From assembly GCA_022843745.1 (NCBI GenBank), contig JALHNB010000010.1, positions 62,001-126,000 of the forward strand: 64,000 bases of DNA. Reading direction: 5' to 3'. How positions within the stretch are numbered: the first letter of the stretch is position 1; every line of letters begins with the position of its first letter. The notes beneath the pieces are model-generated. The model saw only the letters and a list, made by a program, of their open reading frames with translations. It made no database searches and was not told where the DNA came from. A program made the position numbers and the translations under genes. The DNA is from Anaerolineae bacterium. GTDB taxonomy: Bacteria; Chloroflexota; Anaerolineae; Aggregatilineales; Phototrophicaceae. Positions 28,717 to 56,411 of the stretch are shown piece after piece.

Positions 28717-28749
28717 TTCAATCATTTGCTAGACCAGGAGTCTGCCAAA

Positions 28750-31461: not shown

Positions 31462-31473
31462 CGGAGAAGCAAA

Positions 31474-38748: not shown

Positions 38749-41700
38749 ATGTCGCTGAAAAACACTCCCCAGCCTGATCGCGTTCAGTCGATCCAACGCC
38801 AGATCACCCGCCGCATCTTTCCATTAGTTGTGGCGGCTTTTCTGGTCATTGGCTTAATCGGTATGTTGACGATTCGTTCGAATGCGAGAACAAGCTTGGG
38901 CAACAGCCACGAAGTTGTGCTGGCATCGCTTGCTTCGCAGATCAACACTGAGCTTGACCAAACCGCAGAAGATTTGCGGCCTTTGGTGAACGAAAATGTG
39001 GTTCGCCAATTTGCGCTTTCCGCTGCTAATACAGACTCGAACCCGGCAAGCCGGAATGATGTTCTGAAGCTCTTTCTGCAAACTCTCAACACACATCCGG
39101 GACAATATCTCGCCATCCGCTTTATCAAAGCCGATGGAACTGTCCTGGCTCAGGCTGTTCGAACCGCACAAGGAACGGCAACCGTCAGCGATTTGCAGAA
39201 CAGCCTGTCATTCCAGGAGAATGAAGCCTTTCAGCGTACCGTTCGCTCTGCGCCAGGTGAAATAACATTGGGGCAGGTTGCTCTGCAAATTGATGAAACT
39301 GGCCCGTCGCCCATTATCCGTCCTGTCTTACAGTTCTCGTCCCCGGTTCGGTTTCTGGATACCCTGGATACTGTTTTAGGTATTGTGCAGATTGACGTGG
39401 TGGCTAGTGATATTCTCAATACTGTCAATCAGGCTAACCAGAATGATTTATATAATGTAGCTGGTCGGCGTTTTATCCTCTCTAATAGATTTAATGGCTA
39501 TATCGCCGACAGCGATTTGGATGATCCAATTAATCTGTTCGGTCTTGACTCAAACAATGTCCTATCAGATGACGCATCAGCGCCGCGAACGAATCGCCCA
39601 GTCTCGAATGTTGAGAGTTTCCTGGTTGATAACCCCGGCGCATTGTCGGTTGTCGAGAATGAGAATTCAATTATCTCCGCTGTGTTGATTACAACCTTTA
39701 ACGCCCCGGATATGCCCTGGCGTTTAACACTGGTTGATGATACATCGCTGGCTTTGAGCGATAGCAATACCCTATCGACCCTTGTTTTACTGGCCTCATT
39801 AGCAATAGGTTTCTTAGTCGCACTGGGCGTCAGTAGTTTCCTGCGCAATTCTCTTAAGCCTTTTGATCGGGCAACCGCGCTGGTTCGACAGCTTGCGCGA
39901 ACGGGTATGCCGGAACAAGCGCCCAGACAGCTTACTGTAGCATCCGAGCAGGATGATGATCTCACGCAGTCGATTGGGCAGGTTGCCAATCGACTGGAAA
40001 AGCTTAACCAGGCGATAGACGATCAGCGCCGCCGCCTGACGCGCGATGTCGAAATTGCGGCGCGTATCAGCCGTGAAACAGCCTTGTTAAATGACCTGGA
40101 TGGCCTGCTGAACCGCGTTATCAACCTGATTTGCGAAGAATACAATTTTTATCATGCTCAGGTTTTCGTCGTGGACGATATTGGCTTGAACGCGATTTTA
40201 TCCTACAGTCGCGGTGAAGCGGGACAAAAATTGCTTGCACAGAATCATAAAATCGCGGTTGGTTCGGAATCGACAATTGGCCTTACGACTTCTCTTGGTA
40301 AACCGGTGATCGTCAACGATACCGCAGCCGAGGCAGGGCGGCATACCTTTAACCCCATCCTGCCGGAAACCCGCGCTGAAATGGCGCTGCCGCTTTTCAT
40401 CGGCGAAACGGTGATCGGCGCGTTGGATATTCAAAGTACCACGCCCAATGTATTCCAGGAAAATGAGCTTCAGGCTTTCCAATTATTGGCTGACCAGATT
40501 GCTATCGCCATCTACAATGGTCGGCTGCTGATGCAGTCTGAGGAGCGTGTTCATCAGATCGATTCGCTGAATCGTCAATTAACACGCACGGCCTGGGAGA
40601 AATCTCAACAGACATTTGCCCTGGATCATGCTTATCATTATGACCTGCGCTCGATTCAGGAAGGTGTGCCGACTGACGCAGAGTCCGGCGAGTCGATGAG
40701 TATGCCAATCCGCATTCGTGGTGAGGTCATTGGTTCGCTTGATGTGGCTATGCCGAACAGTGAAGGCTTTACCGAGGGTGAACAGGCAATCCTCCGCGCG
40801 GTGACGGATCGTGTCGCGCTGGCGATTGAAAATGCGCGTTTATTCCAGGAAACTGATCTCAGCTTAACTGAAACATCCATTTTGTACGAGATGAGCCGCC
40901 GGATCAGCGAAGCCAACGAGCTGGACGAGATCATTGAAGCGATTGTTCTCTCCGTGGTGCCAGATGCCAGCAGCGGGCAAATCGTTGAATTTGACGATTA
41001 TCCTCTCGGTGGATCGCCAGAGTGGGCAATCATTACGGCAGATTGGTCTTCGATGGAGCGTGATCCGCAGCAGGTTTCACCCATCGGGTCGCGCCTGCGA
41101 ATGAGCGATCATGCCTTATTCCGTGATTTACGCAGCAGCGAAATTATCGCTATCGGCAATCTGAAAAAAGATGCACGTTTTGACACAGCGTTGAAAAAGG
41201 CTTTGAACGGTTTAGAAGCGGGCGCGATGGTGGTCATTCCATTGAGTATGCGCGGCTTTTGGCGTGGCCTGATTATGATCGAATTTTCGATGCCCCGTCA
41301 ATTTCGTGAGCAGGAAGTGCGTCTCTATACCGCGCTGATCGACCAGGCAGGCGTGGCTGTCGATAACCGCCTGCTTTTGCATCAAACCGAGAAAACGCTC
41401 GACCTGCGTGAGCGCATGTATGCTGCCAGCCGCAGTATCAACACGGCTCAGAATATACAGGATTTGGTTAGTGCGGTGATGCTCACCTCGGATGACCCGC
41501 ATTTGAATTTTGCGATGAGTCTGCTTGAGGGTATCCCCAACAATATCGGCTGGCCGAAATATGAACATCTGGTGGCTCGTTCGCGCGATGGCAAAGTTTA
41601 CGAGTTGGACGAACTCTACGAACTCTCGATTGCGGTCAATTCACCAATGTATAACCGGACACCGGAAATCGTCCGCGATGAAAATCCCGATCAGCCCACC

Positions 41701-44700
41701 GACAATCCAGTATTGATAAGGATGCGGGCAGCCGGACAGCGCTATAATGCGATTTTTCCACTCTTTAGCGCGACCCAACCGCTTGCGCTGTTTTATATCA
41801 CGTGCGACGAACTTTATGAGATGTCGGCGGCGGACTACGAAGTTTACTACGCGCTTACGGGCCAGATGAGTACGGTTTTGCAAAACCGCCGTCTGCTCCA
41901 ACAGGCCGAAGGTGAACGCCAGAAACTAAGCTCGATTCTGGATACCCTGCCTGCTGGTGTGTTGGTGCTGGATACACAAACATTCCTGCCTGTGCAAGCC
42001 AATAGCCAGATCGAAACGCTGCTTGGTCGCCCGATCAGCACCGATCAGCCATTTAGCTCAGTCTTATATAATCTATACCGCACCGGTACGCAGATGAATT
42101 ACATCGACACGGAACTGCCGATTTTTATTGCGGCTCAGGAAGGCGTGATGGCCTTCAGTGATGATTTGGTCGTTTCGCATGAAGATGGTACGCAGATTGA
42201 TTTGCTGATGAACGCCGCGCCAGTCTTCGACTCCAAAGGTAATGTGATCTCCATTGTCGCCGCGATTGAGAATATCAGCAGTTTACGCGGTCTGGAAAAC
42301 GCCTTGCAGGACAACCTGCGCGAAACAATTGCGCTCTATGAGGCTACCCGCGCACTCTCCGAAGCAGATGAAATTGAGCAGATTCTGGATGTTCTGATTG
42401 GTCAGTTGGCGATTCTTGAGGCGGGTGAATCGGCAGTCGTGCTACTGGACGAAGAAACCGAGCAGCCTGTCGTTGCGCGAACGCTCATGAGCGCCCCCGA
42501 AGACTTCAAAATTCCGGCTTCGCTGCTCAAGTCGCGTCAGCAGATCGTCATTGAGGATGTCAGCCTTAAGAATACGAACCTGGACGAGGAAACACGCGCC
42601 GCATTACAAGCCGGTGGTATTGCAGCACTCCTGACGATCCCGATGCGAGCGCGTAACCGTGACCTGCCGCGTGGGTGGGTTGTCGTTACCTATGCAGAAT
42701 CACACTCTATGTCCACTGAGGAAGAACGCTTCCTGACCACACTCTCTGATAGCGCAGCCACCGCGCTGGATAACCGCTATCTCTTCCTCAGTACGCAAAG
42801 TGCGCTGCAAGAAGCCAGCATCCTCTATCAGGCCAGCCGTACCCTGACAAATGCGACATCGTATGAGGATATTCTCAACGCTGCCATTGATTATTTAATC
42901 CACCCGCATACGACGCAGGTTTTTATTGCACAGCTTTCAACGCCAACCTGGGATGGGGTCGATGCCGCCGCCCTGGTTGTGGCAAGCTGGCACTCCGCCG
43001 ATAACACCATTGATCTACAGGACGTTGAGCTGAATGATGAGCAATTCCTGGCATGGCGGCAGTTGTCGTCCCGCCAGATTGTGGCGATTGAAGATGTCGA
43101 GGCCGATGAGACGCTCACTGAACTGGAACGCGCAGGGATTGGCAGCCTGGGGCTTCGTTCATTTATTGTGCTGCCCCTGCGTGTAGCAAATCGTGATATT
43201 GGTGCGATCTGGATTGGGTCGTCGGAAATTTATCGAGTAACAGACCGTGACCTGCGGATTTATCAGTCATTTGCCGAGCAAACCTCGATCTCACTGGAAG
43301 CGTCGCGCCTGTTGACCCAGACGAACCGCCGCGCACGTCAATTGGAAACCTCTGCGCAGGTTAGCCAGTTTGCGAGTTCTATTCTCGATCTTGATGTTTT
43401 GCTCCCGCGTCTGGTTGATCTGATCCGTAATTCGTTCAATTATGACCACGTTCAGGTTTTCCTGATGGATCGTGAAGGCGACTACGCGGTGCTACGAGCC
43501 AGTACAGGCGAGGCCGGACGGCAGTTGTTGAGCATCGGCCACAAGCTTCAAAAAGGCTCATTCAGCGTTATCGGCACTGTTACTTCGCAGAATAAACCGA
43601 TTCTGGCACTTGATACGGGGCAGGCTGACGTTGTTCATCGCCCCAATGCCTATCTGCCGCATACCCGTTCCGAGATGGCGCTGCCGCTGGTTGTGAAGGG
43701 TAAGGTTGTAGGTGCGCTCGATGTGCAGTCGAACCGCGCGAATGCCTTTAGCGAAGAAGATGTCACGGTATTGACGATTTTGGCCGCGCAAATCTCCGTC
43801 GCCATCGACAATGCGCGCCTCTTCGAGCAAGCCGAACATCGGGCAAATGATATGAGCTTGCTGTTCGCGGTGACGACGGCAGCAGCGTCGGCGGAAAGTC
43901 TGTCCGGTGCGCTGCAAAATGTGGCGGAAGATTTGCGTGACTCGCTCAGTGCGCTTTCGGTTGGCATTTACCTGCCGACGCGCTACGCCGATGAAATAAG
44001 CGGCGACATGGTGACGATCATGAATATCGCTGCCGTTGCCGGGAGCGACCAGCCGCGTTCGGAAATTTCCGAAGTCAAAGTCGGCGATTTAAAGAATGTC
44101 ATTGGCATCAGCGCCTCCAATTTTCGCTCGATGATTATCAACAAAGTCGAAGACGAAGCGCTTTATCTGCCGCTGGTGGCCTCGGCGCGTTCAGCAGTGG
44201 TTGTTCCGCTGACCTCGGCCTCGCAGCTTATCGGCCTGATTACAATGGAACATGCTGATGCCTTCGCCTACGACCATGAAACGCTGACCCTGCTGCAAAC
44301 GATGGGTGGTACACTATCCGCCATTATCCAGAACGCGCAGTTGCTGGAGCAGGTGCAAAAGCAGAACGATCAGCTTCGTGAGCTGGATCGCATCAAGAGC
44401 GAATTTCTGGCGAACATGAGCCACGAGCTGCGAACACCGCTTAACTCGATCATCGGTTTCAGCCGCGTGATCCTGAAAGGCATTGACGGCCCACTGACCG
44501 AGATGCAAGAGCAGGATTTGAGTACGATCTATAACAGCGGGCAGCATTTGCTCGGCCTGATTAACGATATTCTCGATCAGGCGAAAATCGCTTCCGGCAA
44601 GATGGATCTCAAAATTGATTACTTTGACGTTAAGCCTGTGGTTGAGGGTGTGCGTTCGATTGGTATTGGTCTGGTCAAAGATAAGCCGATCAATATCAAC

Positions 44701-46005
44701 CTCGATATTCAATCCGGTATGCAGCAGGTGTATGGCGACGAGTTCCGCACGCGCCAGGTTTTGCTCAATCTGGTTTCGAATGCTTCTAAATTCACGACTG
44801 AAGGCTCGATCACGCTGAAGGTTTATACGATTGATGATGCCAGCCGGGGACAGAAAATGGTGCGGGTGGATGTCATCGACTCCGGTATTGGTATCGCTCA
44901 AAAAGATATGCCGCTGTTGTTCGAGGCGTTCCGCCAGATCGACTCATCGTTGACGCGGACAGCGGGCGGTACGGGCCTCGGTTTGCCGATCTCCAAATCG
45001 CTGGTCGAAATGCAGGGCGGCGACATGCTGGTACATTCGCAGCTTAATGTCGGCTCGACCTTTAGCATTACCATTCCTACAGGGCCAATTGTGAAGCCTG
45101 AAAGGAAGAGTGGGTTAGTCACGCAGGAGATCACCGCAACACTTGAAACCCCTTCGGTATCTTCCGAATCAAACGGTACAGAGGTGCATGAAACGCATCG
45201 AGTCAATGCGTCTCAGGGCGAGGGGCGTACCACAACGGTCACGATGCCATTGATGATGACCAAGCGCCAGGTGCTGCTGATCGAGAATAATCAGGATCGG
45301 GTTGACCAGTTCCGACGGATGATCCAGCGCGAGGGTTTTGATGTCTTTACCGCATCGATCCCGCTTGAAGCCGAGGCGATGGCAAGCGGTTTGCGCCCGA
45401 CTCTGATTATCATGGATGTCAATTTTTCGAATGGCGCGGGCTGGAATATCCTCGCCAAGCTCAAAGAGCGTGATGACACCTTTGATATTCCCATCATCGT
45501 TGCGACTCTCAGCGATGAAAAAGAGCGTATCGAAGCGCTGGGTGTTCAGGCCTTTTTACAGCATCCGATCATGCCGGAAGAACTGATTAGCGCGGTGATG
45601 GAAGCGGAGCGCGAAAGCCGGATGGATCGCATCCTGATTATCGACGACCAGCCGGAAAGCGCACGTCTATTCAAGCAGCTTCTCGATGAGCATGGGCAAT
45701 ATCGCATTTTCTCCGCGCCCAACGGCATCGAGGGGGTGTCGATGGTCGCACGTCGCCGCCCTGATCTGGTTATTCTCGATCTGCGAATGCCGGAAATGGA
45801 CGGGTTTGAAGTTTTACAGGAACTGCGGTCTAATCCTGAAACGGCTAACATCCCTGTTCTTGTCGTGACGGGCGATACGCTGGATGCTGTCGAGCAAAAT
45901 AAGCTGGCTGATGTAAAGATCATGTACAAAACCGACATCAGCCTCGATGATTACCGACATTTTATAGAGGGTGTACAAACCCACCTGTCCCGTAATGGAG
46001 ATTAA
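38749..46005 (+). CDS. Giant hybrid histidine kinase: Cache-HAMP-GAF array-PAS-HK-REC-REC (2418 aa)
   Basis: TM1 at about 23-43, Cache-like sensor to 340, TM2 at 342-365, HAMP to 425. GAF at 437-595, W-motif linker and half GAF at 609-701, GAFs at 703-884 and 886-1055, PAS at 1057-1187, GAFs at 1191-1347, 1354-1522, 1534-1694 and 1697-1864. HisKA has FLANMSHELRTPLNSIIGF (H1892), and HATPase_c has LLNLVSNASKFTT, DSGIGI and GTGLGLPISK. REC1 (about 2169-2285) is degenerate: IENN replaces the acidic pair and H2272 the usual Lys, though D2223 remains. REC2 (about 2293-2414) is canonical with D2344 and K2394. It is the obvious phosphorylating hub of the operon, fed by the output-less GAF proteins. 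Confidence 0.93.
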   Translation: MSLKNTPQPDRVQSIQRQITRRIFPLVVAAFLVIGLIGMLTIRSNARTSLGNSHEVVLASLASQINTELDQTAEDLRPLVNENVVRQFALSAANTDSNPASRNDVLKLFLQTLNTHPGQYLAIRFIKADGTVLAQAVRTAQGTATVSDLQNSLSFQENEAFQRTVRSAPGEITLGQVALQIDETGPSPIIRPVLQFSSPVRFLDTLDTVLGIVQIDVVASDILNTVNQANQNDLYNVAGRRFILSNRFNGYIADSDLDDPINLFGLDSNNVLSDDASAPRTNRPVSNVESFLVDNPGALSVVENENSIISAVLITTFNAPDMPWRLTLVDDTSLALSDSNTLSTLVLLASLAIGFLVALGVSSFLRNSLKPFDRATALVRQLARTGMPEQAPRQLTVASEQDDDLTQSIGQVANRLEKLNQAIDDQRRRLTRDVEIAARISRETALLNDLDGLLNRVINLICEEYNFYHAQVFVVDDIGLNAILSYSRGEAGQKLLAQNHKIAVGSESTIGLTTSLGKPVIVNDTAAEAGRHTFNPILPETRAEMALPLFIGETVIGALDIQSTTPNVFQENELQAFQLLADQIAIAIYNGRLLMQSEERVHQIDSLNRQLTRTAWEKSQQTFALDHAYHYDLRSIQEGVPTDAESGESMSMPIRIRGEVIGSLDVAMPNSEGFTEGEQAILRAVTDRVALAIENARLFQETDLSLTETSILYEMSRRISEANELDEIIEAIVLSVVPDASSGQIVEFDDYPLGGSPEWAIITADWSSMERDPQQVSPIGSRLRMSDHALFRDLRSSEIIAIGNLKKDARFDTALKKALNGLEAGAMVVIPLSMRGFWRGLIMIEFSMPRQFREQEVRLYTALIDQAGVAVDNRLLLHQTEKTLDLRERMYAASRSINTAQNIQDLVSAVMLTSDDPHLNFAMSLLEGIPNNIGWPKYEHLVARSRDGKVYELDELYELSIAVNSPMYNRTPEIVRDENPDQPTDNPVLIRMRAAGQRYNAIFPLFSATQPLALFYITCDELYEMSAADYEVYYALTGQMSTVLQNRRLLQQAEGERQKLSSILDTLPAGVLVLDTQTFLPVQANSQIETLLGRPISTDQPFSSVLYNLYRTGTQMNYIDTELPIFIAAQEGVMAFSDDLVVSHEDGTQIDLLMNAAPVFDSKGNVISIVAAIENISSLRGLENALQDNLRETIALYEATRALSEADEIEQILDVLIGQLAILEAGESAVVLLDEETEQPVVARTLMSAPEDFKIPASLLKSRQQIVIEDVSLKNTNLDEETRAALQAGGIAALLTIPMRARNRDLPRGWVVVTYAESHSMSTEEERFLTTLSDSAATALDNRYLFLSTQSALQEASILYQASRTLTNATSYEDILNAAIDYLIHPHTTQVFIAQLSTPTWDGVDAAALVVASWHSADNTIDLQDVELNDEQFLAWRQLSSRQIVAIEDVEADETLTELERAGIGSLGLRSFIVLPLRVANRDIGAIWIGSSEIYRVTDRDLRIYQSFAEQTSISLEASRLLTQTNRRARQLETSAQVSQFASSILDLDVLLPRLVDLIRNSFNYDHVQVFLMDREGDYAVLRASTGEAGRQLLSIGHKLQKGSFSVIGTVTSQNKPILALDTGQADVVHRPNAYLPHTRSEMALPLVVKGKVVGALDVQSNRANAFSEEDVTVLTILAAQISVAIDNARLFEQAEHRANDMSLLFAVTTAAASAESLSGALQNVAEDLRDSLSALSVGIYLPTRYADEISGDMVTIMNIAAVAGSDQPRSEISEVKVGDLKNVIGISASNFRSMIINKVEDEALYLPLVASARSAVVVPLTSASQLIGLITMEHADAFAYDHETLTLLQTMGGTLSAIIQNAQLLEQVQKQNDQLRELDRIKSEFLANMSHELRTPLNSIIGFSRVILKGIDGPLTEMQEQDLSTIYNSGQHLLGLINDILDQAKIASGKMDLKIDYFDVKPVVEGVRSIGIGLVKDKPININLDIQSGMQQVYGDEFRTRQVLLNLVSNASKFTTEGSITLKVYTIDDASRGQKMVRVDVIDSGIGIAQKDMPLLFEAFRQIDSSLTRTAGGTGLGLPISKSLVEMQGGDMLVHSQLNVGSTFSITIPTGPIVKPERKSGLVTQEITATLETPSVSSESNGTEVHETHRVNASQGEGRTTTVTMPLMMTKRQVLLIENNQDRVDQFRRMIQREGFDVFTASIPLEAEAMASGLRPTLIIMDVNFSNGAGWNILAKLKERDDTFDIPIIVATLSDEKERIEALGVQAFLQHPIMPEELISAVMEAERESRMDRILIIDDQPESARLFKQLLDEHGQYRIFSAPNGIEGVSMVARRRPDLVILDLRMPEMDGFEVLQELRSNPETANIPVLVVTGDTLDAVEQNKLADVKIMYKTDISLDDYRHFIEGVQTHLSRNGD

Positions 46006-46011
46006 GGTTCT

Positions 46012-47688
46012 TTGGCTATATTGGATAACACTAAACAAATCGAACTTGAGTGTATTTACTGCCATACGCGCGTGTCGTTTGATAAAAATATCTCCGGCTG
46101 CCCGAAGTGTGGCGAGAATATCTTGGAGGCGCGTTACGATTTAAGCGAATTGGTTGTTGATGGCTGGTTGGCATCGCTCAAGCAGCGCAAAGCCGGACTG
46201 TGGCGTTATCATGAAGTTCTACCGATTTATGACACCCAAAATGTCGTCAGCCTGGGTGAAGGTGGCACACCACTCATTAAATCTAAAGCGCTGGCAGCCA
46301 GCCTGGGTTTGAACAATCTCTACATCAAAGACGAGCGCCAGGGGCCAACAGGCAGCTTTAAAGACCGTCAGGCCACTGTCGCCATTTCCGCGCTGCGCGA
46401 GATGGGCGTGGACGAATTGGTCGTCGCCAGCACAGGCAATGTGGCGATTGCCTACGCCGCTTACTGCGCTCGTGCCGGAATTAAACTGTGGGCGTTTTTC
46501 CCCAGCCTCGCGCCGGGTGATAAGATGCGCGAAGCCGCCGTCTATGGCGCAGAAGTCATCAAGATTACTGGCACCTATGACCAGACTAAAGAACTCGCCG
46601 CACGATTCGCCAAAACCAAAGGCGTTTTTCTCGATAAAGGCATCAAAAGTGTGGCGGCTATTGAAGCCATGAAAACGATGGCCTACGAGATCGCCGAACA
46701 GCTCGGCAACGAACTGGAAGGTGGGCAGCGCTGGCGTTCGCCGGATTGGTTCTTGCAGGGGGTAAGCGGGGGCATGGGGCCGATTGGCGTGGGCAAAGGC
46801 TTCCGCGAGATGGTCGATTTTGGCATTCTCGATAAAATGCCGTCAATGGGCATTATCCAATCGACAGGCTGCGCCCCAATGGTTGAAGCCTTTGGACGTG
46901 GGCAGCGTATCGCGACACCCAACGAAAATCCGCAAACGATTATTGCCACGCTGGCAACAGGCAACCCAGGCCGCGCTTATGAACTGCTTTATGATTATGT
47001 CGAGCAATTTGGCGGGACATTTATTTCCGCCACCGACGAAGAAGCATTTAATGCGATTCGCGTATTGGCGCGTAGTGATGGCATGTCGGTTGAACCTGCG
47101 ACGGGTGTTACCTTTGCCGGATTATTCAAGATGGTGCGGGCAGGCATTATCAAGCCGGATGATGTCGTCGTCGTCAATTGCTCCGGTCACACGATGCCTG
47201 TTGAAACGCAAATTCTCGATGAACAGTGGCAACGTTCGGTTGATCTTTCGCAGAACTCCAAAGCGCCCGTGCTGCCCGAAGAAGGTCTGCTCTCAGCGCT
47301 GGAACAGATGGAATCGACTGTCAAGCGCATCGTCATTGTCGAGGATAACCAGGATGCAGCACGGCTGATCAGCCGCATTCTCCAGGCACGCGGGGGTTAC
47401 GAGGTGTATACCGCCAACGAAGGTGGAGAAGGCATCTCGATTATTCGCTCTGTCCGGCCTGACCTGGTTGTGACCGACCTCATGATGCCGGGTATTGATG
47501 GATTCACGCTGATTGACGCGATGAAAAGCGACGAAATGATGAATCACATTCCGATTGTCGTCGTCACCGCGAAAGAATTGACCGTAAAAGAACGCGCCCG
47601 TTTAAGCGGACAGATTGATCTGCTGCTTCAAAAAGGCTCGTTTATTGACGAGGAGTTTGTGGAAAGCCTCATTAGCCGCTTAGACTGA
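46012..47688 (+). CDS. Threonine synthase fused to a C-terminal receiver domain
   Basis: 558 residues in one open frame. An N-terminal zinc ribbon (C14-x2-C17, C30-x2-C33) leads the PLP fold: LGEGGTPLIKSK, GPTGSFKDRQA (PLP lysine K117), ASTGNVAIAYAAYCARAG (phosphate loop) and VNCSGHTMPVE, all diagnostic of threonine synthase (O-phosphohomoserine to threonine). After the linker LLSALEQMESTVKR comes a complete receiver (438-558): E444-D445, phosphoacceptor D489 in VVTDLMMPGIDG, T519 and K541. TTG start with AAGG 5 nt upstream, 6 bp after the giant kinase stop. I infer allosteric control of, or docking of the enzyme through, phosphorylation by that kinase. A free-standing thrC elsewhere in the genome cannot be excluded. 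Confidence 0.92.
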   Translation: MAILDNTKQIELECIYCHTRVSFDKNISGCPKCGENILEARYDLSELVVDGWLASLKQRKAGLWRYHEVLPIYDTQNVVSLGEGGTPLIKSKALAASLGLNNLYIKDERQGPTGSFKDRQATVAISALREMGVDELVVASTGNVAIAYAAYCARAGIKLWAFFPSLAPGDKMREAAVYGAEVIKITGTYDQTKELAARFAKTKGVFLDKGIKSVAAIEAMKTMAYEIAEQLGNELEGGQRWRSPDWFLQGVSGGMGPIGVGKGFREMVDFGILDKMPSMGIIQSTGCAPMVEAFGRGQRIATPNENPQTIIATLATGNPGRAYELLYDYVEQFGGTFISATDEEAFNAIRVLARSDGMSVEPATGVTFAGLFKMVRAGIIKPDDVVVVNCSGHTMPVETQILDEQWQRSVDLSQNSKAPVLPEEGLLSALEQMESTVKRIVIVEDNQDAARLISRILQARGGYEVYTANEGGEGISIIRSVRPDLVVTDLMMPGIDGFTLIDAMKSDEMMNHIPIVVVTAKELTVKERARLSGQIDLLLQKGSFIDEEFVESLISRLD

Positions 47689-47758
47689 TTGCAGGGGCGC
47701 GAATACCGAGCCTTTGTGATATATTGCAGGGGCGCGAAGACTGTGCCTTTGTGATATA
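47689..47758. repeat. Tandem pair of 35-bp repeats
   Basis: Both copies (47689-47723 and 47724-47758) read TTGCAGGGGCGCGAA, then six or so variable bases, then GCCTTTGTGATATA. The first begins one base after the threonine synthase-REC stop. The variable middle with constant ends suggests slippage or insertion of a small mobile repeat. Confidence 0.75.
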
Positions 47759-47790
47759 TTGAAATCAGGCATATTTTAGAGAGGCGCTGT

Positions 47791-49053
47791 GTGATCGCGG
47801 TTAAGGAAACTATCCTATACATTGAGGACGATCCTGCCAGCAGACTGCTGGTTGAACGCACGCTCAAACACGCCGGGTATAAAGTGCTGGTTGCGGAGCG
47901 TGGTCTTGAAGGAATCGACATGGCACGCCGCGAACTGCCCGATCTCATACTCACCGACATTAACCTGCCGGACATCAGTGGTCGTGAAGTAACGACCATG
48001 CTGCGCAGTGATATACGCTTCCAACAGACTCCGATTGTCGCCCTCACCGCCCAGGCTTATGACGAACAGCGCGAATTGACGATGGCCGCAGGCATTACAG
48101 GCTATCTCACCAAGCCGCTGGATATTGAAGCCCTGCCGGGACGCATCGAGCATTATCTCAAAGGCGGTAAAGACAATATCTCTGCTGAGAGGATGGCGGA
48201 CGCACAGGTTCGCTATACGCGCGAAGTGGTTGGTCGCCTGGAAGCGCGAATCCGCGAACTCGAATCCAGCAACAACGAACTGCGCCGCCTGGACAAAATG
48301 AAAGACAGCTTTATCCAGTTGACGGCACACGAACTGCGCACACCGCTGACATTGGTCTATGGCTACAGCCGCCTTCTTGAAGACAGCCCTCCCATTAAAA
48401 CCGTCGCCAACGAGGATGAGAATATCAAAACGCTCATCAAGGGTTTGACCGAGGCGATTCAACGGATGCAGGGGATCATCAATGAAATTCTGACGATCAG
48501 CCGCATCATGACCAATCAGATTGATATGTCTGTCGGCCCCGTTGACCCCGCCCAGGTTGTTCAAAGAGTCGTCAATAATTACAAACACGCGCTGGAAGGC
48601 CGCCGTTTGAATGTGCATTTCGATCCGGCGACTTGGCCCCACAAGATTCGCGGGGATAGCGAATTGCTGACTCTGGCTGTGAGCAGCCTCATCAGCAACG
48701 CGATCAAATACACGCCCGATCAAGGGCATATTTATATTACGGCGCAGGCGGATGAACAACAGCTTCGGTTGTGCATCCGTGATACAGGGATCGGTGTCGC
48801 AAAAGAGGAACAGGAACGTATTTTTGAGCGCTTCCATACGGCAGGCGATACGATGTTGCATTCGACCAGCAAGACTGCCTTTCGGGGTGGCGGTTTGGGG
48901 CTTGGGCTGGCGGTCTGCAAAGGCATTATTGATGCGCATGGCGGGCGGGTCTGGGTCGAAAGTTCTGGACTAAACCTGGAAAAACTACCGGGCAGTGAAT
49001 TTATTGTCCTTTTGCCGCTGGTCGCTCATGTACAAAGACGCACAACAGTCTAA
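47791..49053 (+). CDS. Receiver-histidine kinase (REC-HisKA-HATPase)
   Basis: 420-residue soluble protein. N-terminal receiver with E12-D13-D14, phosphoacceptor D56 in LILTDINLPD and lysine in YLTKPLD; a helical linker (about 125-170); HisKA with IQLTAHELRTPLTLVYGYS (H180); HATPase_c with ISNAIKYTPD, DTGIGV and GGGLGLGLAVCK. The REC-first order means that the kinase activity is probably switched by phosphate arriving from another kinase, such as the giant hybrid. GTG start with a GAGAGG site. Confidence 0.92.
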   Translation: MIAVKETILYIEDDPASRLLVERTLKHAGYKVLVAERGLEGIDMARRELPDLILTDINLPDISGREVTTMLRSDIRFQQTPIVALTAQAYDEQRELTMAAGITGYLTKPLDIEALPGRIEHYLKGGKDNISAERMADAQVRYTREVVGRLEARIRELESSNNELRRLDKMKDSFIQLTAHELRTPLTLVYGYSRLLEDSPPIKTVANEDENIKTLIKGLTEAIQRMQGIINEILTISRIMTNQIDMSVGPVDPAQVVQRVVNNYKHALEGRRLNVHFDPATWPHKIRGDSELLTLAVSSLISNAIKYTPDQGHIYITAQADEQQLRLCIRDTGIGVAKEEQERIFERFHTAGDTMLHSTSKTAFRGGGLGLGLAVCKGIIDAHGGRVWVESSGLNLEKLPGSEFIVLLPLVAHVQRRTTV

Positions 49054-49062
49054 AGGCGGTTT

Positions 49063-50235
49063 TTGGTGCAGGATTCGAAACCCCAACTACGAGGCATTAT
49101 TGCCGCTTTTCTGACACCGCTTTTCCTGGGTGTTGCTCCGATCTTCGGAAAACTCGCGATTACGTCAGGTGTCGATCCATTCAGCGTCGCTGCGGTTCGC
49201 ACCCTCATTGCCGTTGGGTTTTTGTGGGCATTCTACGTCATCTTTTTTCGCAAATTTATTTATATCTATCCGGCAGGGCTGCTCGGCTGTATCGTTCTGG
49301 GTATCGTCAATGGCATTGGCTCGCTCTTTTATTACAGCGGGCTGGGTTTACTAGATGCCTCACTGACGCAGTTGCTCAACGGGATGTATCTGGTGTTTGC
49401 CGTGTTGATGACACGCCTCGGCGGTGAACGTCTCGACGGGCGGATGATCTTTCGCGTTTTGCTCACGCTTTTAGCGCTCATTATGCTGACTGGCTTTGGC
49501 GATAACTCCATTAACTGGCTCGGTGTTGGTTTGATGCTGGGCAGTGCTTTGATGTTCGCTGGAACGATGATCCTCAGCCAATATGTGCTGTACGAAATGC
49601 CCTCACCAACGGTGACATTGTACACGCTCACGACGATGGGCGTTGTCGTGGTGATGGCGTGGTTAGCGACGGGTGTTCAGACCAGTCTGCCCGTACTCGA
49701 AGCTGCCATGCCGCCAATTATCATTCTCGGCATTACGACGGCTCTATCGCGATTGGCGATGTTCGCCGGGGTCAAGTTTCTGGGTGGTTTGCAGACCGCT
49801 GTTCTGGCAATTGCTGAAATCGGTGTCGCGCTGGCGCTGGCATTTCTGGTGTTGGATGAGCGCCTCACGGGTATCCAGGTGATCGGTGTCGCCATTTTGA
49901 CGCTCAGTATCCTGCTCGTTCGCGCCAGTGATCTGATCTCAGACCGCTTTAACCCCGGCAAGCTCGTGATGCAGAATATCGCCACACAGCAGTTTCAGTG
50001 GATTGCTTTTCAGCACGCTTTTGCCAAGAAGGAAGAAGAGGGCAGCAATAATGTCATGTCACAGATCACGACTGCCGAGATTCAGGCAATTCGCGATATG
50101 ATGGGCGTGGATGGGAAGCCAATTAACCCGTTTCCGATCAACTCACCCCAGGGCTATAGCGTAGACCTCACGACGTTTCTGAAAGACGCAAACGACCAGG
50201 ATGCTCCGCCAGCGAAACAAGAGAGCAATGAATAA
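49063..50235 (+). CDS. EamA-family exporter with long C-terminal cytoplasmic tail
   Basis: 390 residues: ten helices in two EamA repeats (about 10-150 and 160-295), then about 90 hydrophilic residues that most relatives lack (ending DAPPAKQESNE). TTG at 49063 or GTG at 49066, with AAGGCGG just upstream. It begins 9 bp after the REC-kinase stop, so it is likely the last gene of the operon. The EamA family includes RhtA, the threonine/homoserine exporter. With a threonine synthase two genes upstream, amino acid export is a plausible but unproven role. Confidence 0.85.
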   Translation: MVQDSKPQLRGIIAAFLTPLFLGVAPIFGKLAITSGVDPFSVAAVRTLIAVGFLWAFYVIFFRKFIYIYPAGLLGCIVLGIVNGIGSLFYYSGLGLLDASLTQLLNGMYLVFAVLMTRLGGERLDGRMIFRVLLTLLALIMLTGFGDNSINWLGVGLMLGSALMFAGTMILSQYVLYEMPSPTVTLYTLTTMGVVVVMAWLATGVQTSLPVLEAAMPPIIILGITTALSRLAMFAGVKFLGGLQTAVLAIAEIGVALALAFLVLDERLTGIQVIGVAILTLSILLVRASDLISDRFNPGKLVMQNIATQQFQWIAFQHAFAKKEEEGSNNVMSQITTAEIQAIRDMMGVDGKPINPFPINSPQGYSVDLTTFLKDANDQDAPPAKQESNE

Positions 50236-51386: not shown

Positions 51387-51548
51387 GATGAATACTCACC
51401 GAATTTCGCTGAATAAAATCTGCTTTATTATACCATATTTCGGGTATAGATTAAATGTTCGTCTCGATTTCTGATGAAAACGTTACATGCTCTTTGCAAA
51501 CCTCAAACTGCCCCGCTACAATGCCTGCCGTCTATGATCGGTAGGTTT

Positions 51549-53948
51549 ATGTTAAAAATTTTTTCGCGGGTGCAAGCCGCACACATCATCATTTACCTGT
51601 TTTATCTGGGCATCGCTGCGCTCATCACATGGCCTCTGGTGACGGTATTCTCGACGCAGCTTGTCGGGCATCCCTTTGGCGATTCGTATGAGTATATGCG
51701 CCACATCTGGTGGATCAAACACGCCCTGCAAACCGGACAGTCGATTTTTAACCAGCCGCTTCTGGCCTATCCTGATGGGTTGACGGGCGCGTGGCTGTGG
51801 GGAAATCCGCTGCAATCATTTCCGGCGTGGCTGTTCGCGTTCGTGATGCCGCTGTCTGCTGCCTTCAATTTCTCGGTTCTGCTGACTCTGGCGCTCAATG
51901 GCTGGACCATGTACTGGCTCATGTGGCATCTCACGGATAAAAACAGAGGCGCGGCGCTGCTGGCTGGGCTGGTGTTTCTGGCTGCGCCGACATTTCAGGG
52001 GCAGTTGGGCGCGGGGCATACAGGCTTATTGGTGCTGTGGCCTGTACCGCTGTATATCTATGGGCTGATACGCTTAAAAAATTCACCCCATTTACGTTGG
52101 CTGATCTGGAGCGCGTTATTTTTCGTCGTCAGCCTGTGGGGAAATATGCTGCTCATCATTTTCCTCATCGCTCCGGTGACGGCTTTATTCGTGCTCATGC
52201 GTTTGATCGAGCGTGATTGGCGAGGATTGGCGGGGCTGCTCGGCGCGGCGCTGATCGGAGGGCTGCTGTCGTTGATCTTTATTTTGCCTGTCGCCCGCGA
52301 GACGCTGAACTCGCCTGCGATTCAGGAAAGCAACGAAGTCCGCTACAGCGCCGATTTACTGAGCATCGTTACGCCCTCGTTTTATCACCCGATCTTCAAA
52401 AATTTTGATTACACGCACAAAATTCTGGGCATTGAGCCATTCGAGCGTATCGGTTATGTCGGAATCATCGCCACTCTGTTGGTGATCGTGGCACTCTGGA
52501 AAGTAAAAAATGCGCGATGGTGGCTGCTTTTAGCGGTCATAGCCTGGATATTTTCGCTGGGTCCGCTGCTCAAGGCTTTTGATCAGGTCGTGCTGCTGAA
52601 TCTCGGCGAATACCAGAGTTACGTTACGCTCCCCTGGCTGATTTTCCATAACCTGCCGCTGCTCAACCTGACACGCACCCCGGCGCGTTTCAATATGGTC
52701 GTCGCGCTGGCTGTCGCGGTGATGGTCGGTTATGGCGCGGCGGTTGTATCTCGAAAAATAACATCTGTAGGGGCACGGCGCGCCGTGCCCCTACAATCGG
52801 TGATTCTTATTCTGGTGATGACCGCCATTGTCTACGAATATCAGTTTTTCTGGCCGCTGCCGACGATTCCCGGCACTGTGCCGGACGCGGTGGAGGCAAT
52901 CAGTCAGCGTGACGATGTACGCGCGGTATTCGACATGCCCTGGTTTCATCTGCTGGTCGATAAAGATGGCTTGTTTTTGCAGACCGGACACCAGCGCCCC
53001 ATGATCGGCGGGCATGTCACGCGGCGCACACCTGCTGACCCGGCCAAATTGACGATTTTGCAGGAAACGCTCGATTATGCGCTGCTTGATGCAGCGGGCG
53101 TGGATGTTGTGATTCTCCACAAACAATGGGATGAATCCGGAGGTGAACTCGACAGGCGTACCCGTTCGCGTTTCGGTCAGCCATTTTATGAAGACGAGCG
53201 AATCGCTGTTTTTGAAGTGCCGCCGCCGTTGGACGCACCTGAATTCGTCGCCGTTCCCGCGCCACAGTCGGAAATCGGCGATCAGATTGATTCGTATCTC
53301 TATGCGCCGGAGTCGGGATGGGTGACTCTCAGCGGTGGTTTTGCAGCCGATGGTCGTGATTTGACGCTGTATCTGGACGGTGAACTGGCGCATCGCTGGA
53401 CAATTGACAGTACGCAGCGAATTGATTTGACGCTGCCCGTGAGCGCAGGCTATCACACCATCACGCTGGCGGTTGAGCCACCTTGCCCGCTGCATTTTGA
53501 CGCAACTCTGGAATGCCGTGCTGTTCAGGTAACCAATCTTGCGCTCGGAAACTTTACACCCTCTGCGCTCGACCAGGTTGTGCAATTTGATCGCGGTTTA
53601 CAACTGGCAGGGGCATATCTACCGCCTGTGCGAACTGAAATATCAGCCTCGCTGTGGTGGCGCTTCGACCAGCCACGCAGCACTAACGAGATACGCTTTG
53701 TCCATGTGTTGAATGCGGAAGGTGTCAATGTCGCCCAAACCGACGACACATTGGGCGATCAACCCGCCGGGGGAGAGTGGGTTGAAACCGTGACGATCCC
53801 GCTGCCGGACGATCTGCCTGCTGGCGAATATACCGTCTACACAGGCTGGTACACGCTACCGGAGGTGGTACGCTTTCCGGTGCTGTCGGATGTGCCTGGG
53901 GCGCAAAATGGCTTGGTCGAGTTGGGAAAATTCAGGATTGAGGACTGA
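51549..53948 (+). CDS. GT-C-like polytopic membrane glycosyltransferase, paralogue A
   Basis: 799 residues from the ATG at 51549, preceded by GGTAGG and matching the start of its paralogue; the frame is open 25 codons earlier. About 10-12 helices (to about 450) with an early loop GDSYEYMRHIWWIKHALQTG, whose acidic residues sit where GT-C enzymes bind metal and lipid-sugar donor. A soluble domain (about 455-590) and a C-terminal beta region of about 200 residues (GWVTLSGGFAADGRDLTLYL) follow. It probably transfers a sugar from a polyprenyl phosphate on the outer membrane face. A 30-bp perfect palindrome inside the frame encodes VGARRAVPLQ at about residue 406-415. Followed 3 bp later by its paralogue. 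Confidence 0.75.
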   Translation: MLKIFSRVQAAHIIIYLFYLGIAALITWPLVTVFSTQLVGHPFGDSYEYMRHIWWIKHALQTGQSIFNQPLLAYPDGLTGAWLWGNPLQSFPAWLFAFVMPLSAAFNFSVLLTLALNGWTMYWLMWHLTDKNRGAALLAGLVFLAAPTFQGQLGAGHTGLLVLWPVPLYIYGLIRLKNSPHLRWLIWSALFFVVSLWGNMLLIIFLIAPVTALFVLMRLIERDWRGLAGLLGAALIGGLLSLIFILPVARETLNSPAIQESNEVRYSADLLSIVTPSFYHPIFKNFDYTHKILGIEPFERIGYVGIIATLLVIVALWKVKNARWWLLLAVIAWIFSLGPLLKAFDQVVLLNLGEYQSYVTLPWLIFHNLPLLNLTRTPARFNMVVALAVAVMVGYGAAVVSRKITSVGARRAVPLQSVILILVMTAIVYEYQFFWPLPTIPGTVPDAVEAISQRDDVRAVFDMPWFHLLVDKDGLFLQTGHQRPMIGGHVTRRTPADPAKLTILQETLDYALLDAAGVDVVILHKQWDESGGELDRRTRSRFGQPFYEDERIAVFEVPPPLDAPEFVAVPAPQSEIGDQIDSYLYAPESGWVTLSGGFAADGRDLTLYLDGELAHRWTIDSTQRIDLTLPVSAGYHTITLAVEPPCPLHFDATLECRAVQVTNLALGNFTPSALDQVVQFDRGLQLAGAYLPPVRTEISASLWWRFDQPRSTNEIRFVHVLNAEGVNVAQTDDTLGDQPAGGEWVETVTIPLPDDLPAGEYTVYTGWYTLPEVVRFPVLSDVPGAQNGLVELGKFRIED
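52766..52795. repeat. REP-like palindrome inside coding sequence of GT-C paralogue A
   Basis: Perfect 30-bp palindrome, arms TGTAGGGGCACGGCG / CGCCGTGCCCCTACA, read in frame as part of the protein between the last membrane helices. The arm ends TGTAGGGGC match the intergenic family. Confidence 0.85.
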
Positions 53949-53951
53949 GCG

Positions 53952-56411
53952 TTGAGGGCGAAACTTCAAATACACGCCGCCGTCATCCTTTTTTATTTTG
54001 CCCTGGCGCTCATCATTACCTGGCCGCTGGTGACGGTGCTTTCGACTCACCTCGCCGGGTTTGCCTATGGCGATGGTCACGAGATGGCGCGGCATATCTG
54101 GTGGTACAACCATGCGCTGCGCACCGGGCAGGATATTTTTTATCAACCGCTGCTGGGTTATCCCAATGGAATCGACGGTGTTTTGTACTGGGCGCACCCG
54201 CTTCAATTTTTCCCCGCGTGGCTGTTTGCCTATATTTTGCCGCTGCCTGCTGCCGCGAATCTGGCGATTCTGCTGGCGATGGCGCTCAACGGCTGGGGGA
54301 TGTACTGTCTCGCGGCGTATTTATTTGACAACGCGCGTATTCCGGCGCTGCTGGCAGGTGTCGTTTTTATGACTGCACCGACCTTCCAGGGGCATCTTGG
54401 CGGTGGTCACGCGGGTTTAATGGTCATGTGGCCTGCACCATTGTATTTGCTGGCGCTGTTTAAATTACGGACGCATCGCGATGCGCCCCTACCAATTACC
54501 AAAACGCGGACTCTAATCCTACGATTGTTTGGGGATCGTGAAACCCGGCGTTGGCTGGCGCTGGCGATCTTATTTTTTGTTCTCAGCAGCACCGGACATG
54601 TCCTGCAATTGATCTATCTATTGCTGCCTGTGACAGGTGTTTTCATGCTGACGCTGCTCGTCCGGCGCGAGTGGGTAGCGTTGGCGCGAACGATTCTCGT
54701 CGGCATCCTCGGTTGTGCGTTTTTGATGATTTTTTTGCTCCCGATTATCCAATCAACACTCAATACGCCAGCCTATACCGACGAAGGTGGTTTCGTGCGT
54801 TACAGTGCCGACCTCCTGAGCATCGTTTCGCCGTCGTTTTATCACCCACTGTACAGCGCTCTCGATTACCCGCGTCGTGTGCTGGGCGTGAACCTGGAAG
54901 AAGGCGTGAGCTATATCGGCATCGTTGCGGGAATTCTCGCGCTCATCGGAGTCTGGAAAAAATCGGCAGCACACTGGTGGCTGATTTTAGCGTTCGTGAT
55001 CTGGGTGTTTTCGCTGGGGCCGCTGTTGAAAATTTTCGATCGGCCCGTTTCGCTGGAAATCGACGGCTATACCAGTTTTATCACGCTGCCCTGGTCGCTG
55101 CTGCAAAATCTGCCGTTTTTCAGCCTTGCCCGCACACCAGGACGCTTTAATTTCGCGCTGGCGTTGGCGGTAGCGGTGATCGCAGGCTATGGCGCGGCGT
55201 GGGTGTGGGGAAAAATTGCAAAAATGACGGTAGGAGCGCAGCGCGCTGCGTCCCTGCGATGGGCAATTTTTATCGTAATAACTGCTGCCATCCTCTTTGA
55301 TTATCAGCTTTACTGGCCGCTGCCCACTATATCCGCTGCCATCCCCGATCAGGTTTATGCGTTGAATGAACGAAATGATGTTCGAGCTGTCTTTGATATT
55401 CCCTGGGATAATCTAGTGGCGGCGAAGGACGCGCTCTATTTGCAAACGGCGCACCAACTCCCACTGGTAGGCGGGCATCTGACCCGCAGTACGCCCGTCA
55501 GCCCTGCTAAACTAACGCTGCTGCAAGCGACGCTCGATCCAGCACTGCTCGACACAGCAGGCGCGGACGTGATTATTTTGCATAAAGCCTATATTTCACC
55601 AGAAATCGACCATTTCACGCGCGAAAGATTGGGTACGCCCATTTACGAAGATGCTGATATTGCGCTGTTTGATCGCCCCGAAACACCGAACGAAAACCCC
55701 TCGGCGCGATTGCTAACGGCGCAGACGATTACGCCCGACTATGCGGATTCTTACATTTATGAGTCGAGCAGTGGATGGGTCGATTTTTCCGGCATGTTGG
55801 CGGCGAACGGGCGTGAGGTCGAACTCTATCTGGATCGCCAATTAATTCATCGTTGGATAGTAGATAGCAAAATGGCGTTCAATATCCCGATTCCCATATC
55901 GGCTCAGGCCTATCATACGGTCAGATTAGCGCTTAATCCGGCTTGCCCACAGTTCAGTGAAACCGCATTGCGCTGTCGTGCGCTGGAAATGCACGACTTA
56001 TCGTTTGGCGCACTCGACCTTGCTGAGGATGTGAATGGGCAGCTTGACCGGGGCATTACATTGGTGCGGGCATTTGTGCCGGAAAATGCTATGGCTGGCG
56101 AAAGTCTGCTTGTGAACCTGTTCTGGCGATTTGACACGCCGCGCAACGGAACAGAGATACGTTTTTTGCATGTGTTGAATCAGGATGATGAGCTTGTTGC
56201 ACAGTTCGATTCGACATTGGGCGATCAGCCTGCTGGAGGCGCGTGGGCGGAGTCGGCGAATATCGCGCTGCCCGATAATCTGCCATCAGGGACATACCGT
56301 GTTTATGTGGGTTGGTACACTTACCCGGATGCTGCCCGATTTAAGGTCTTGTCGGATGTGGACGGCGCACAAAATAATCTGATTTTCTTGGGTACGTTTA
56401 AGCTAAGATGA
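53952..56411 (+). CDS. GT-C-like polytopic membrane glycosyltransferase, paralogue B
   Basis: 819 residues, TTG start with GAGG 8 nt upstream, 3 bp after paralogue A. Same architecture: polytopic region with GDGHEMARHIWWYNHALRTG, APTFQGHLGGGHAGLMVMWP, then a soluble domain and a C-terminal beta region ending in GWYTYPDAARFKVLSDVDGA, as in A (GWYTLPEVVRFPVLSDVPGA). Two palindromic elements lie inside the frame: one aligned with that of A (VGAQRAASLR) and an extra one encoding about RTHRDAPLP near residue 175, where A has no counterpart. Tandem duplication of an ancestral gene is evident. The 3' end is itself repeated downstream. Confidence 0.75.
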   Translation: MRAKLQIHAAVILFYFALALIITWPLVTVLSTHLAGFAYGDGHEMARHIWWYNHALRTGQDIFYQPLLGYPNGIDGVLYWAHPLQFFPAWLFAYILPLPAAANLAILLAMALNGWGMYCLAAYLFDNARIPALLAGVVFMTAPTFQGHLGGGHAGLMVMWPAPLYLLALFKLRTHRDAPLPITKTRTLILRLFGDRETRRWLALAILFFVLSSTGHVLQLIYLLLPVTGVFMLTLLVRREWVALARTILVGILGCAFLMIFLLPIIQSTLNTPAYTDEGGFVRYSADLLSIVSPSFYHPLYSALDYPRRVLGVNLEEGVSYIGIVAGILALIGVWKKSAAHWWLILAFVIWVFSLGPLLKIFDRPVSLEIDGYTSFITLPWSLLQNLPFFSLARTPGRFNFALALAVAVIAGYGAAWVWGKIAKMTVGAQRAASLRWAIFIVITAAILFDYQLYWPLPTISAAIPDQVYALNERNDVRAVFDIPWDNLVAAKDALYLQTAHQLPLVGGHLTRSTPVSPAKLTLLQATLDPALLDTAGADVIILHKAYISPEIDHFTRERLGTPIYEDADIALFDRPETPNENPSARLLTAQTITPDYADSYIYESSSGWVDFSGMLAANGREVELYLDRQLIHRWIVDSKMAFNIPIPISAQAYHTVRLALNPACPQFSETALRCRALEMHDLSFGALDLAEDVNGQLDRGITLVRAFVPENAMAGESLLVNLFWRFDTPRNGTEIRFLHVLNQDDELVAQFDSTLGDQPAGGAWAESANIALPDNLPSGTYRVYVGWYTYPDAARFKVLSDVDGAQNNLIFLGTFKLR
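54466..54491. repeat. REP-like palindrome in GT-C paralogue B, absent from A
   Basis: 26-bp palindrome with core CGCATCGCGATGCG and two mismatched pairs, right arm GCGCCCCTA. In frame it encodes hydrophilic residues inserted in a loop after FKLRTH, making B longer than A here. Confidence 0.75.
55230..55257. repeat. REP-like palindrome in GT-C paralogue B, shared position with A
   Basis: 28-bp imperfect palindrome with core CGCAGCGCGCTGCG and decayed arms (GTAGGAG / TCCCTGC). It is collinear and in the same reading phase as the perfect copy at 52766-52795. Confidence 0.75.

Follow-up and report, generated by a model that had tools for sequence, protein, structure and literature searches.

A threonine synthase-like PLP enzyme fused to a receiver domain in Chloroflexota: a putative kinase-gated response regulator accompanied by an EamA transporter

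The window analysed in this study, a stretch of 64,000 nucleotides from an Anaerolineae bacterium of the phylum Chloroflexota, encodes at 46012-47688 on the forward strand a protein of 558 residues in which a threonine synthase (ThrC)-like PLP enzyme, the PALP domain, is joined in one frame to a C-terminal receiver domain (REC). The PALP-REC fusion is real and old. We propose, at a probability of roughly 0.55, that it acts as a response regulator with an active PLP enzyme of altered pocket as its output, that this output is gated by the neighbouring kinase, and that the module has a dedicated transporter. The proposal is built on the architecture of the fusion, its residue conservation and monophyly, the operon-like gene order, the co-occurrence with an EamA transporter, the intact kinase and the canonical ThrC encoded separately. 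Our statements on the transport direction, the product, phosphotransfer and gating are inferences.

Results

Architecture and conservation of the fusion

The frame starts with a TTG codon at 46012 and stops at 47688. Pfam places PALP at residues 79-391 (239 bits; cut-off 35) and Response_reg at residues 440-533 (66 bits; cut-off 30.2). At the N-terminus, the zinc-ribbon cysteines C14, C17, C30 and C33 (46051-46110) are invariant in alignment A1, whose 46 rows are the window protein and 45 of 49 fused homologues (L035, L041, L044 and L052 are absent). The PALP catalytic domain (46246-47184), identified by Pfam, alignment and fold match, carries the PLP lysine K117 at 46360-46362. It is followed by a linker of residues 401-436 (47212-47319) and by the receiver domain of residues 437-558 (47320-47685), supported by Pfam and alignment, with the phosphoacceptor D489 at 47476-47478. 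An AlphaFold2 single-chain model (mean pLDDT 84.3, pTM 0.70) has two ordered domains and a low-confidence linker, pLDDT falling below 50 across residues 414-435. The best fold matches of the modelled PLP domain are ThrC folds, with 2c2b at Z 45.9 and an rmsd of 2.4 over 391 aligned residues.

Residues were counted over 50 rows, the window protein and 49 fused homologues, two of the rows being truncated at contig ends. L055 and L056, cut at contig ends, and L001, L005 and L006, which are views of source-genome copies, were excluded from the homologue set, while the truncated L052 and L044 were counted for residues and excluded from the tree and the identity means. The catalytic Lys, the STGN loop, the glycine-rich loop and the REC residues are invariant or nearly so. 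The catalytic residues of the output domain are intact, with K117 in 49 rows and a gap in the remaining one, and N143 in all 50. So are the acidic pair, phosphoacceptor Asp, Thr/Ser and Lys of a receiver domain: D445 and D489 are each found in 50/50 rows, position 444 is E in 44 and D in 6, position 519 is T in 44 and S in 6, and K541 is present in 49 with one gap. An uninterrupted PLP-enzyme/receiver frame with K117, E444-D445, D489, T519 and K541 had been described in an earlier note made from the window alone, and every residue it named is there.

These data bear on whether the PLP domain is an enzyme at all. It could instead be a ligand sensor or scaffold whose REC docks on the hybrid kinase encoded next to it or serves as a phosphate sink, so that information would run from metabolite to kinase. 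The adjacency of that kinase, the kinship of the RECs and the standalone RECs found downstream of the fusion in L077, L081, L082, L085 and L086 would agree with such a role. Against it, no row that covers the site has lost Lys117, and among 48 rows the mean pairwise identity is highest in PALP (0.723), compared with 0.556 in REC, 0.443 in the linker and 0.437 in the zinc ribbon. Because the lysine is kept and PALP is the most conserved part, catalysis fits better than mere binding, and we regard the sensor or scaffold role as improbable.

Occurrence of the fusion

A contig scan for homologues of the fusion returned 68 loci, 48 of which have a homologue that is 49-81% identical and spans both domains in a single frame (2 of the 48 truncated). 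When a profile of the fusion was run over 400 genomes of the phylum, with the best 3 candidates per genome scored, at least 57 matches of at least 699 bits were found in 42 genomes, and all 57 span both domains. The match after these scores 300.9 bits and stops short of the REC, and no unfused member of the fusion's PALP clade was seen among the best 3 candidates of each of the 400 genomes. The 42 genomes belong to 11 families, with 24 of them in a single family, and at least 15 have two fused copies. In the source genome, the second fused protein lies on contig C12, is 47% identical to the window protein, and has 707 residues with an extra second REC. In a tree of PALP domains, the 48 fused proteins included are monophyletic on a long stem (support 0.939, stem 0.63); of 20 unfused rows, 19 were counted after exclusion of L067, which has a run of unknown bases.

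That the fusion might be a frame-join or assembly artefact, or be absent from relatives, had been raised by the earlier note as grounds for giving it up. The same one-frame fusion is present on 48 other contigs and in 42/400 genomes of the phylum, and the 57/57 matches cover both domains, which excludes chance or assembly error; nothing was found in favour of an artefact, a reading that we reject as having a negligible probability.

Outside the phylum, searches of 149 genomes each in the phyla of L068 and L070, by record title Planctomycetota and Acidobacteria, gave no match at E 1e-100, and both are uninformative as they were run without a positive control. Among plasmids, 52 records have a ThrC-like match at E 1e-30 and none covers 80% of the fusion. 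One record titled Pleurocapsa minor, a cyanobacterium (L027, genome G019), has the REC-kinase together with both types of fused gene, like the Chloroflexota records, and is probably a mislabelled or mixed assembly. Two fused copies from the same genus g4 (G294:C50 and G074:C30) have one in-frame TAG each.

Relation to threonine synthase and cysteate synthase

The protein had been taken for a threonine synthase in the earlier note, an identity that did not hold up well. Five solved ThrC sequences compared (2zsj, 1uim, 2d1f, 6cgq and 1e5x) all have the motif NSxNxxRxEGQKT with its Arg, which we take, from the Thermus structure, to contact the substrate phosphate of ThrC. At this site, the fused clade has [DE]-x-G-x-[KR]-x-x-x-[ASG]-x-E-x-M-K-T, which in the window protein reads D-K-G-I-K-S-V-A-A-I-E-A-M-K-T (residues 208-222; 46633-46677). 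The position of the Arg is taken by A216 (46657-46659), and no Arg is seen at this position in the 50 rows (45 A, 3 S, 2 G). The GNAGN/GNLGN loop of ThrC is likewise replaced by SGG[MLI]GP in 50/50 rows, which in the window protein is S252-G-G-M-G-P257 (46765-46782). Arg is kept in 14/19 unfused ThrC-like rows; since it is missing from the other 5, losing it does not set the fusion apart.

On contig C16 the source genome encodes a canonical ThrC, which scores 255 bits on TIGR00260 with the motif intact and divergently adjoins a GHMP kinase that we read as the homoserine kinase ThrB. A census of 46 of the 50 fused loci (L035, L052, L055 and L056 were excluded) and the source genome found a separate ThrC of at least 247 bits in 41/47 fusion genomes, a count by score, the motif having been read in the source genome. 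No separate high-scoring ThrC was found in the other six (G002, G023, G032, G035, G040 and G041), whose assembly completeness is not given, and a threonine role is therefore possible there. With the ThrC motif missing, a separate high-scoring ThrC in 41/47 genomes and a canonical one in the source genome, we judge a housekeeping threonine synthase to be unlikely. As judged from sequence, PALP-REC is probably not the threonine maker of the cell, and the label 'threonine synthase' is doubtful for it.

A different question is whether the fusion is a true ThrC isoform that turns O-phosphohomoserine into threonine at a flux set by the kinase, with the EamA transporter as a threonine exporter. The fold and the PLP residues fit ThrC. 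The window protein passes TIGR00260 (thrC) with 176.1 bits against a cut-off of 167.1, which counts against a non-ThrC reading; the second fused copy of the source genome fails with 145.6 bits. K171 is invariant in the fused clade and sits at the site of a Lys found in 4/5 of the solved ThrC sequences. Opposed to this are the Arg motif and GNAGN loop missing from all rows, the source genome's canonical ThrC with its ThrB-like neighbour and the high-scoring ThrC in most of the others, and the PRK08197/NF006050 model, on which the window protein scores 292.7 bits and the second copy 266.5, both failing the cut-off of 303. Taken together, we consider a ThrC isoform unlikely.

Another gene of the source genome, L079:4578-5828 on contig C8, scores 320.5 bits on PRK08197, over the cut-off, and has T in place of the ThrC Arg. 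Its neighbours are a carbamoyltransferase gene, a gene of the amino acid kinase family and another PALP gene, and the name 'threonine synthase' is doubtful for it also.

We also considered a cysteate synthase-type enzyme that depends on O-phosphoserine and makes a sulfonate or a beta-substituted alanine. On the cysteate synthase model TIGR03844, the window protein (123.3 bits) and the second fused copy (118.2 bits) score higher than two unfused paralogues of the source genome (87.6 and 49.2 bits). A QxVxxGxG stretch is common to the fused proteins and to the Alistipes CapA2/cysteate synthase chain 9k3c, reading QAVxxGxG in the second copy and in 9k3c and QGVxxGxG in the window protein. Set against these are the TIGR03844 cut-off of 324.9 bits, far above the fusion, and a sequence comparison in which 9k3c is outscored by five threonine synthases; the fold evidence is mixed, with 9k3c at Z 39.6, 2d1f at 39.6 and 1e5x at 39.2, compared with 45.9 for 2c2b. 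A synthase of this sort is thus very improbable. Membership of the cysteate synthase family itself was rejected on the TIGR03844 score, and the likeness may serve as a weak lead to the substrate. The accessible parts of two papers on cysteate synthase (PMC12172450, PMC9304779) hold nothing useful on the substrate of the fusion.

Neighbouring kinases

Upstream of the fusion lies a giant hybrid kinase of 2418 residues (38749-46005, forward strand), in which Pfam finds GAF repeats, HisKA, HATPase and two RECs; at its N-terminus there is a weak dCache match below the cut-off. Downstream, a REC-HisKA-HATPase kinase of 420 residues, also found by Pfam, occupies 47791-49053 on the same strand. The spacing given by the earlier note was borne out, with 6 bases measured between the stop of the hybrid kinase at 46005 and the fusion, and 102 bases between the fusion and the REC-kinase. 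The gap 47689-47790 between the last two has two near-identical copies of roughly 35 bases (TTGCAGGGGCGCGAA...GCCTTTGTGATATA). A scan found consensus promoters and terminators no more often than in shuffled sequences.

This order recurs among the homologues. Over 48 loci, the second copy of the source genome being excluded, a relative of the hybrid kinase lies no more than 400 bp upstream of the fusion in 38 of the 47 that have room for it, frequently with a gap of -3 to 10 bases, and is missing from the adjacent position in 9. A REC-kinase relative follows the fusion in 25/48. The HisKA and HATPase domains of the nearby kinases are intact in the 38/47 loci: when the window kinase and its 38 relatives are aligned, the HisKA His is present in 37/37 rows with a residue there (2 gaps), and the Asn, Asp and Gly of the ATP site in 39/39. 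The first REC of the hybrid kinase (REC1) has lost its Lys in 28/38 rows (R in 25 and H in 3, K being kept in 10), and the second (REC2) is intact (D in 37/37, T/S in 38/38, K in 37/37).

The REC of the fusion resembles REC2. In a weakly supported tree of 41 of the 123 RECs collected, from 15 sources including the window, the fused RECs have the REC2s of the hybrid kinases as their neighbours (support 0.799), and two kinase REC2s lie within the fused group. In the source genome, where 150 of 184 candidates were scored, the REC2 of the neighbouring kinase gives the highest-scoring REC match once the fused proteins are set aside (77.1 bits), ahead of one at 60.1 bits. A REC copied from the neighbouring kinase and perhaps still phosphorylated by it would fit these observations. 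The hybrid kinase, upstream in most of the loci and with its REC2 as nearest relative, is likely to be the cognate kinase of the fusion, which is in line with the phosphorelay partnership that the earlier note had suggested.

Leading into the hybrid kinase are five GAF proteins (28726-38736, forward strand; Pfam and frame positions), in which Pfam finds no kinase domain and which have 4-base start/stop overlaps at three junctions. They may form a split sensor array and are possibly part of the sensor.

The EamA transporter and variant loci

An EamA (DMT superfamily) transporter is encoded at 49063-50235 on the forward strand, identified by Pfam (PF00892, 74.8 bits against a cut-off of 28.2, two stretches) and by its genomic co-occurrence with the fusion. 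The earlier note was right about kinases on both sides of the fusion and missed this transporter, which travels with it. An EamA gene lies on the same strand within 2 kb downstream of the fusion in 31/44 loci with 2.5 kb of room. With a profile of the EamA subfamily built from 17 sequences and run over the 400 genomes at E 1e-50, the best 4 candidates per genome being scored, the subfamily was found in 35 genomes, and all 35 are among the 42 fusion genomes. Thirty of the 35 genes follow the fusion within 2 kb and share its strand; for 21 of them the two matches are 16-58 bp apart. One is near the fusion on the opposite strand (G238), four are elsewhere in the genome (G423, G322, G254 and G134), and 7/42 fusion genomes are without an EamA gene. 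The source genome has no second copy of this EamA at 1e-10. Fisher's p of 1e-43 for the co-occurrence is descriptive and ignores relatedness, since related genomes are counted as if independent (24/42 are from one family, and the EamA genomes are those of the source class and G057).

TIGR00950, a carboxylate/amino acid/amine transporter model, is matched weakly, at E 0.001 or better, by 16/17 EamA members, a point in favour of the threonine exporter of the ThrC isoform; the window EamA fails the model with 29.8 bits against a cut-off of 230.2. Further along the window, two adjacent long membrane-like proteins (51474-53948 and 53952-56411; 824 and 819 residues) are 50% identical over 815 residues and are a tandem duplication.

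Some loci have other neighbours. EamA is absent from L081 (G080), where the order is REC, GNAT, hybrid kinase, PALP-REC and REC, and from L083 (G174), where a hybrid-kinase relative and the fused gene are followed by an unfused ThrC-like gene. In the source genome, the region L077:4430-9685 of contig C12 holds the second fused copy, which has two RECs of its own. This copy is flanked by an MFS transporter gene on one side and by two standalone RECs on the other, the latter followed by a GNAT acetyltransferase gene. A GNAT gene also lies downstream of the fused gene in L054, and the GNAT proteins are 40% (source and L081), 42% (source and L054) and 38% (L081 and L054) identical. Unfused ThrC-like genes that keep the Arg are found downstream of the fused gene in three loci (L082:9365-10552, L086:5803-7029 and L083:4011-5543), with one standalone REC between the two in L082 and L086. 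The fused gene and its Arg-keeping neighbour possibly form a catalytic pair.

Discussion

We argue that PALP-REC is a response regulator with a PLP enzyme as its output. The output domain, a fold-II enzyme from the threonine synthase group, is predicted to be catalytically competent and would act on another substrate through its changed pocket. The hybrid kinase could integrate signals via its GAF and N-terminal parts and then autophosphorylate, and the phosphate would be passed to D489 in the REC of the fusion, a close relative of the terminal REC of the kinase. Through the flexible linker, the phosphorylated REC may then alter how active the PLP domain is or how it oligomerises, in a way that might be likened to control by the C-terminal regulatory domains of threonine deaminase and cystathionine beta-synthase. 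The enzyme would make or consume a small molecule, probably an amino-acid-like one, that crosses the membrane via the adjacent EamA transporter.

It is conceivable, though we hold this tentatively, that the genes make up a complete unit for chemical signalling or secretion in Chloroflexota, gated by the kinase. The kinase would switch a neofunctionalised PLP synthase on and off by direct phosphorylation, without transcription, and a novel amino-acid-like product would leave via EamA and act as a signal, an osmolyte or a public good. Some second copies might feed a sister pathway that adds the GNAT acetyltransferase.

Two-component systems mostly act by transcription or second messengers. With a REC built into an amino-acid-type PLP enzyme, as in these 11 families, small-molecule synthesis would be switched directly by phosphorylation. 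Our results also suggest that a protein passing the curated thrC model may have another substrate, and the genes for enzyme, kinase and transporter offer a set of three for joint tests aimed at the product.

That no system of this kind had been described was the view of the earlier note. A search of the literature, with most subscription journals outside its reach, found no paper on a ThrC-like or PLP output with REC. As a general statement the view is too strong, because RECs on metabolic enzymes are a recognised class: the part of PMC5847659 that was available reports RECs joined to standard metabolic enzymes from work on bacteria, and a like trend in archaea. In the accessible text of PMC7090099, thrC appears only as expression. 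The census of output domains in PMC1183210, as far as its available portion goes, leaves out other enzymatic ones and therefore neither supports nor contradicts novelty. The REC-enzyme kind is thus already known, and it is the dedicated transporter and the giant kinase that are unusual here.

When the fusion is compared with its relatives, it has the fold, PLP lysine, STGN loop and [ST]GH-type C-terminal motif in common with ThrC (TIGR00260), and an N-terminal zinc ribbon in common with the canonical ThrC of the source genome. It differs from ThrC in being without NSxNxxRxEGQKT or GNAGN, in having a C-terminal REC, in not lying beside thrB and in coexisting with a canonical ThrC. The PRK08197/NF006050 group, which is unfused and found in Bacillota, archaea and Chloroflexota, is the nearest model, and many of its members have a GG.G loop; the fusion stays below its cut-off, and the Arg that the fusion has lost is kept in most of the unfused ThrC-like rows. 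Cysteate synthase (TIGR03844; CapA2, PDB 9k3c) has the QxVxxGxG stretch and the fold (Z 39.6) in common with the fusion, which scores 123 bits against a cut-off of 325.

In its layout, the fusion is close to two known enzymes. IlvA consists of a fold-II PLP core followed by a C-terminal regulatory domain. The same layout is given in part for CBS in the portion of PMC9081730 that was accessible. The regulatory domains of IlvA and CBS sense small ligands, whereas that of PALP-REC is a phosphoacceptor. The archaeal REC-enzyme fusions described in PMC5847659 are, within its available text, confined to a family or genus, compared with the 11 families of PALP-REC.

Like the response regulators with enzymatic output, PALP-REC has an intact REC and an enzyme on one chain, with a kinase encoded beside it. 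REC-GGDEF of the PleD type is a well-known member of that class. PALP-REC differs from the known enzymatic-output regulators in that its output is a fold-II PLP amino-acid enzyme and that its REC is C-terminal.
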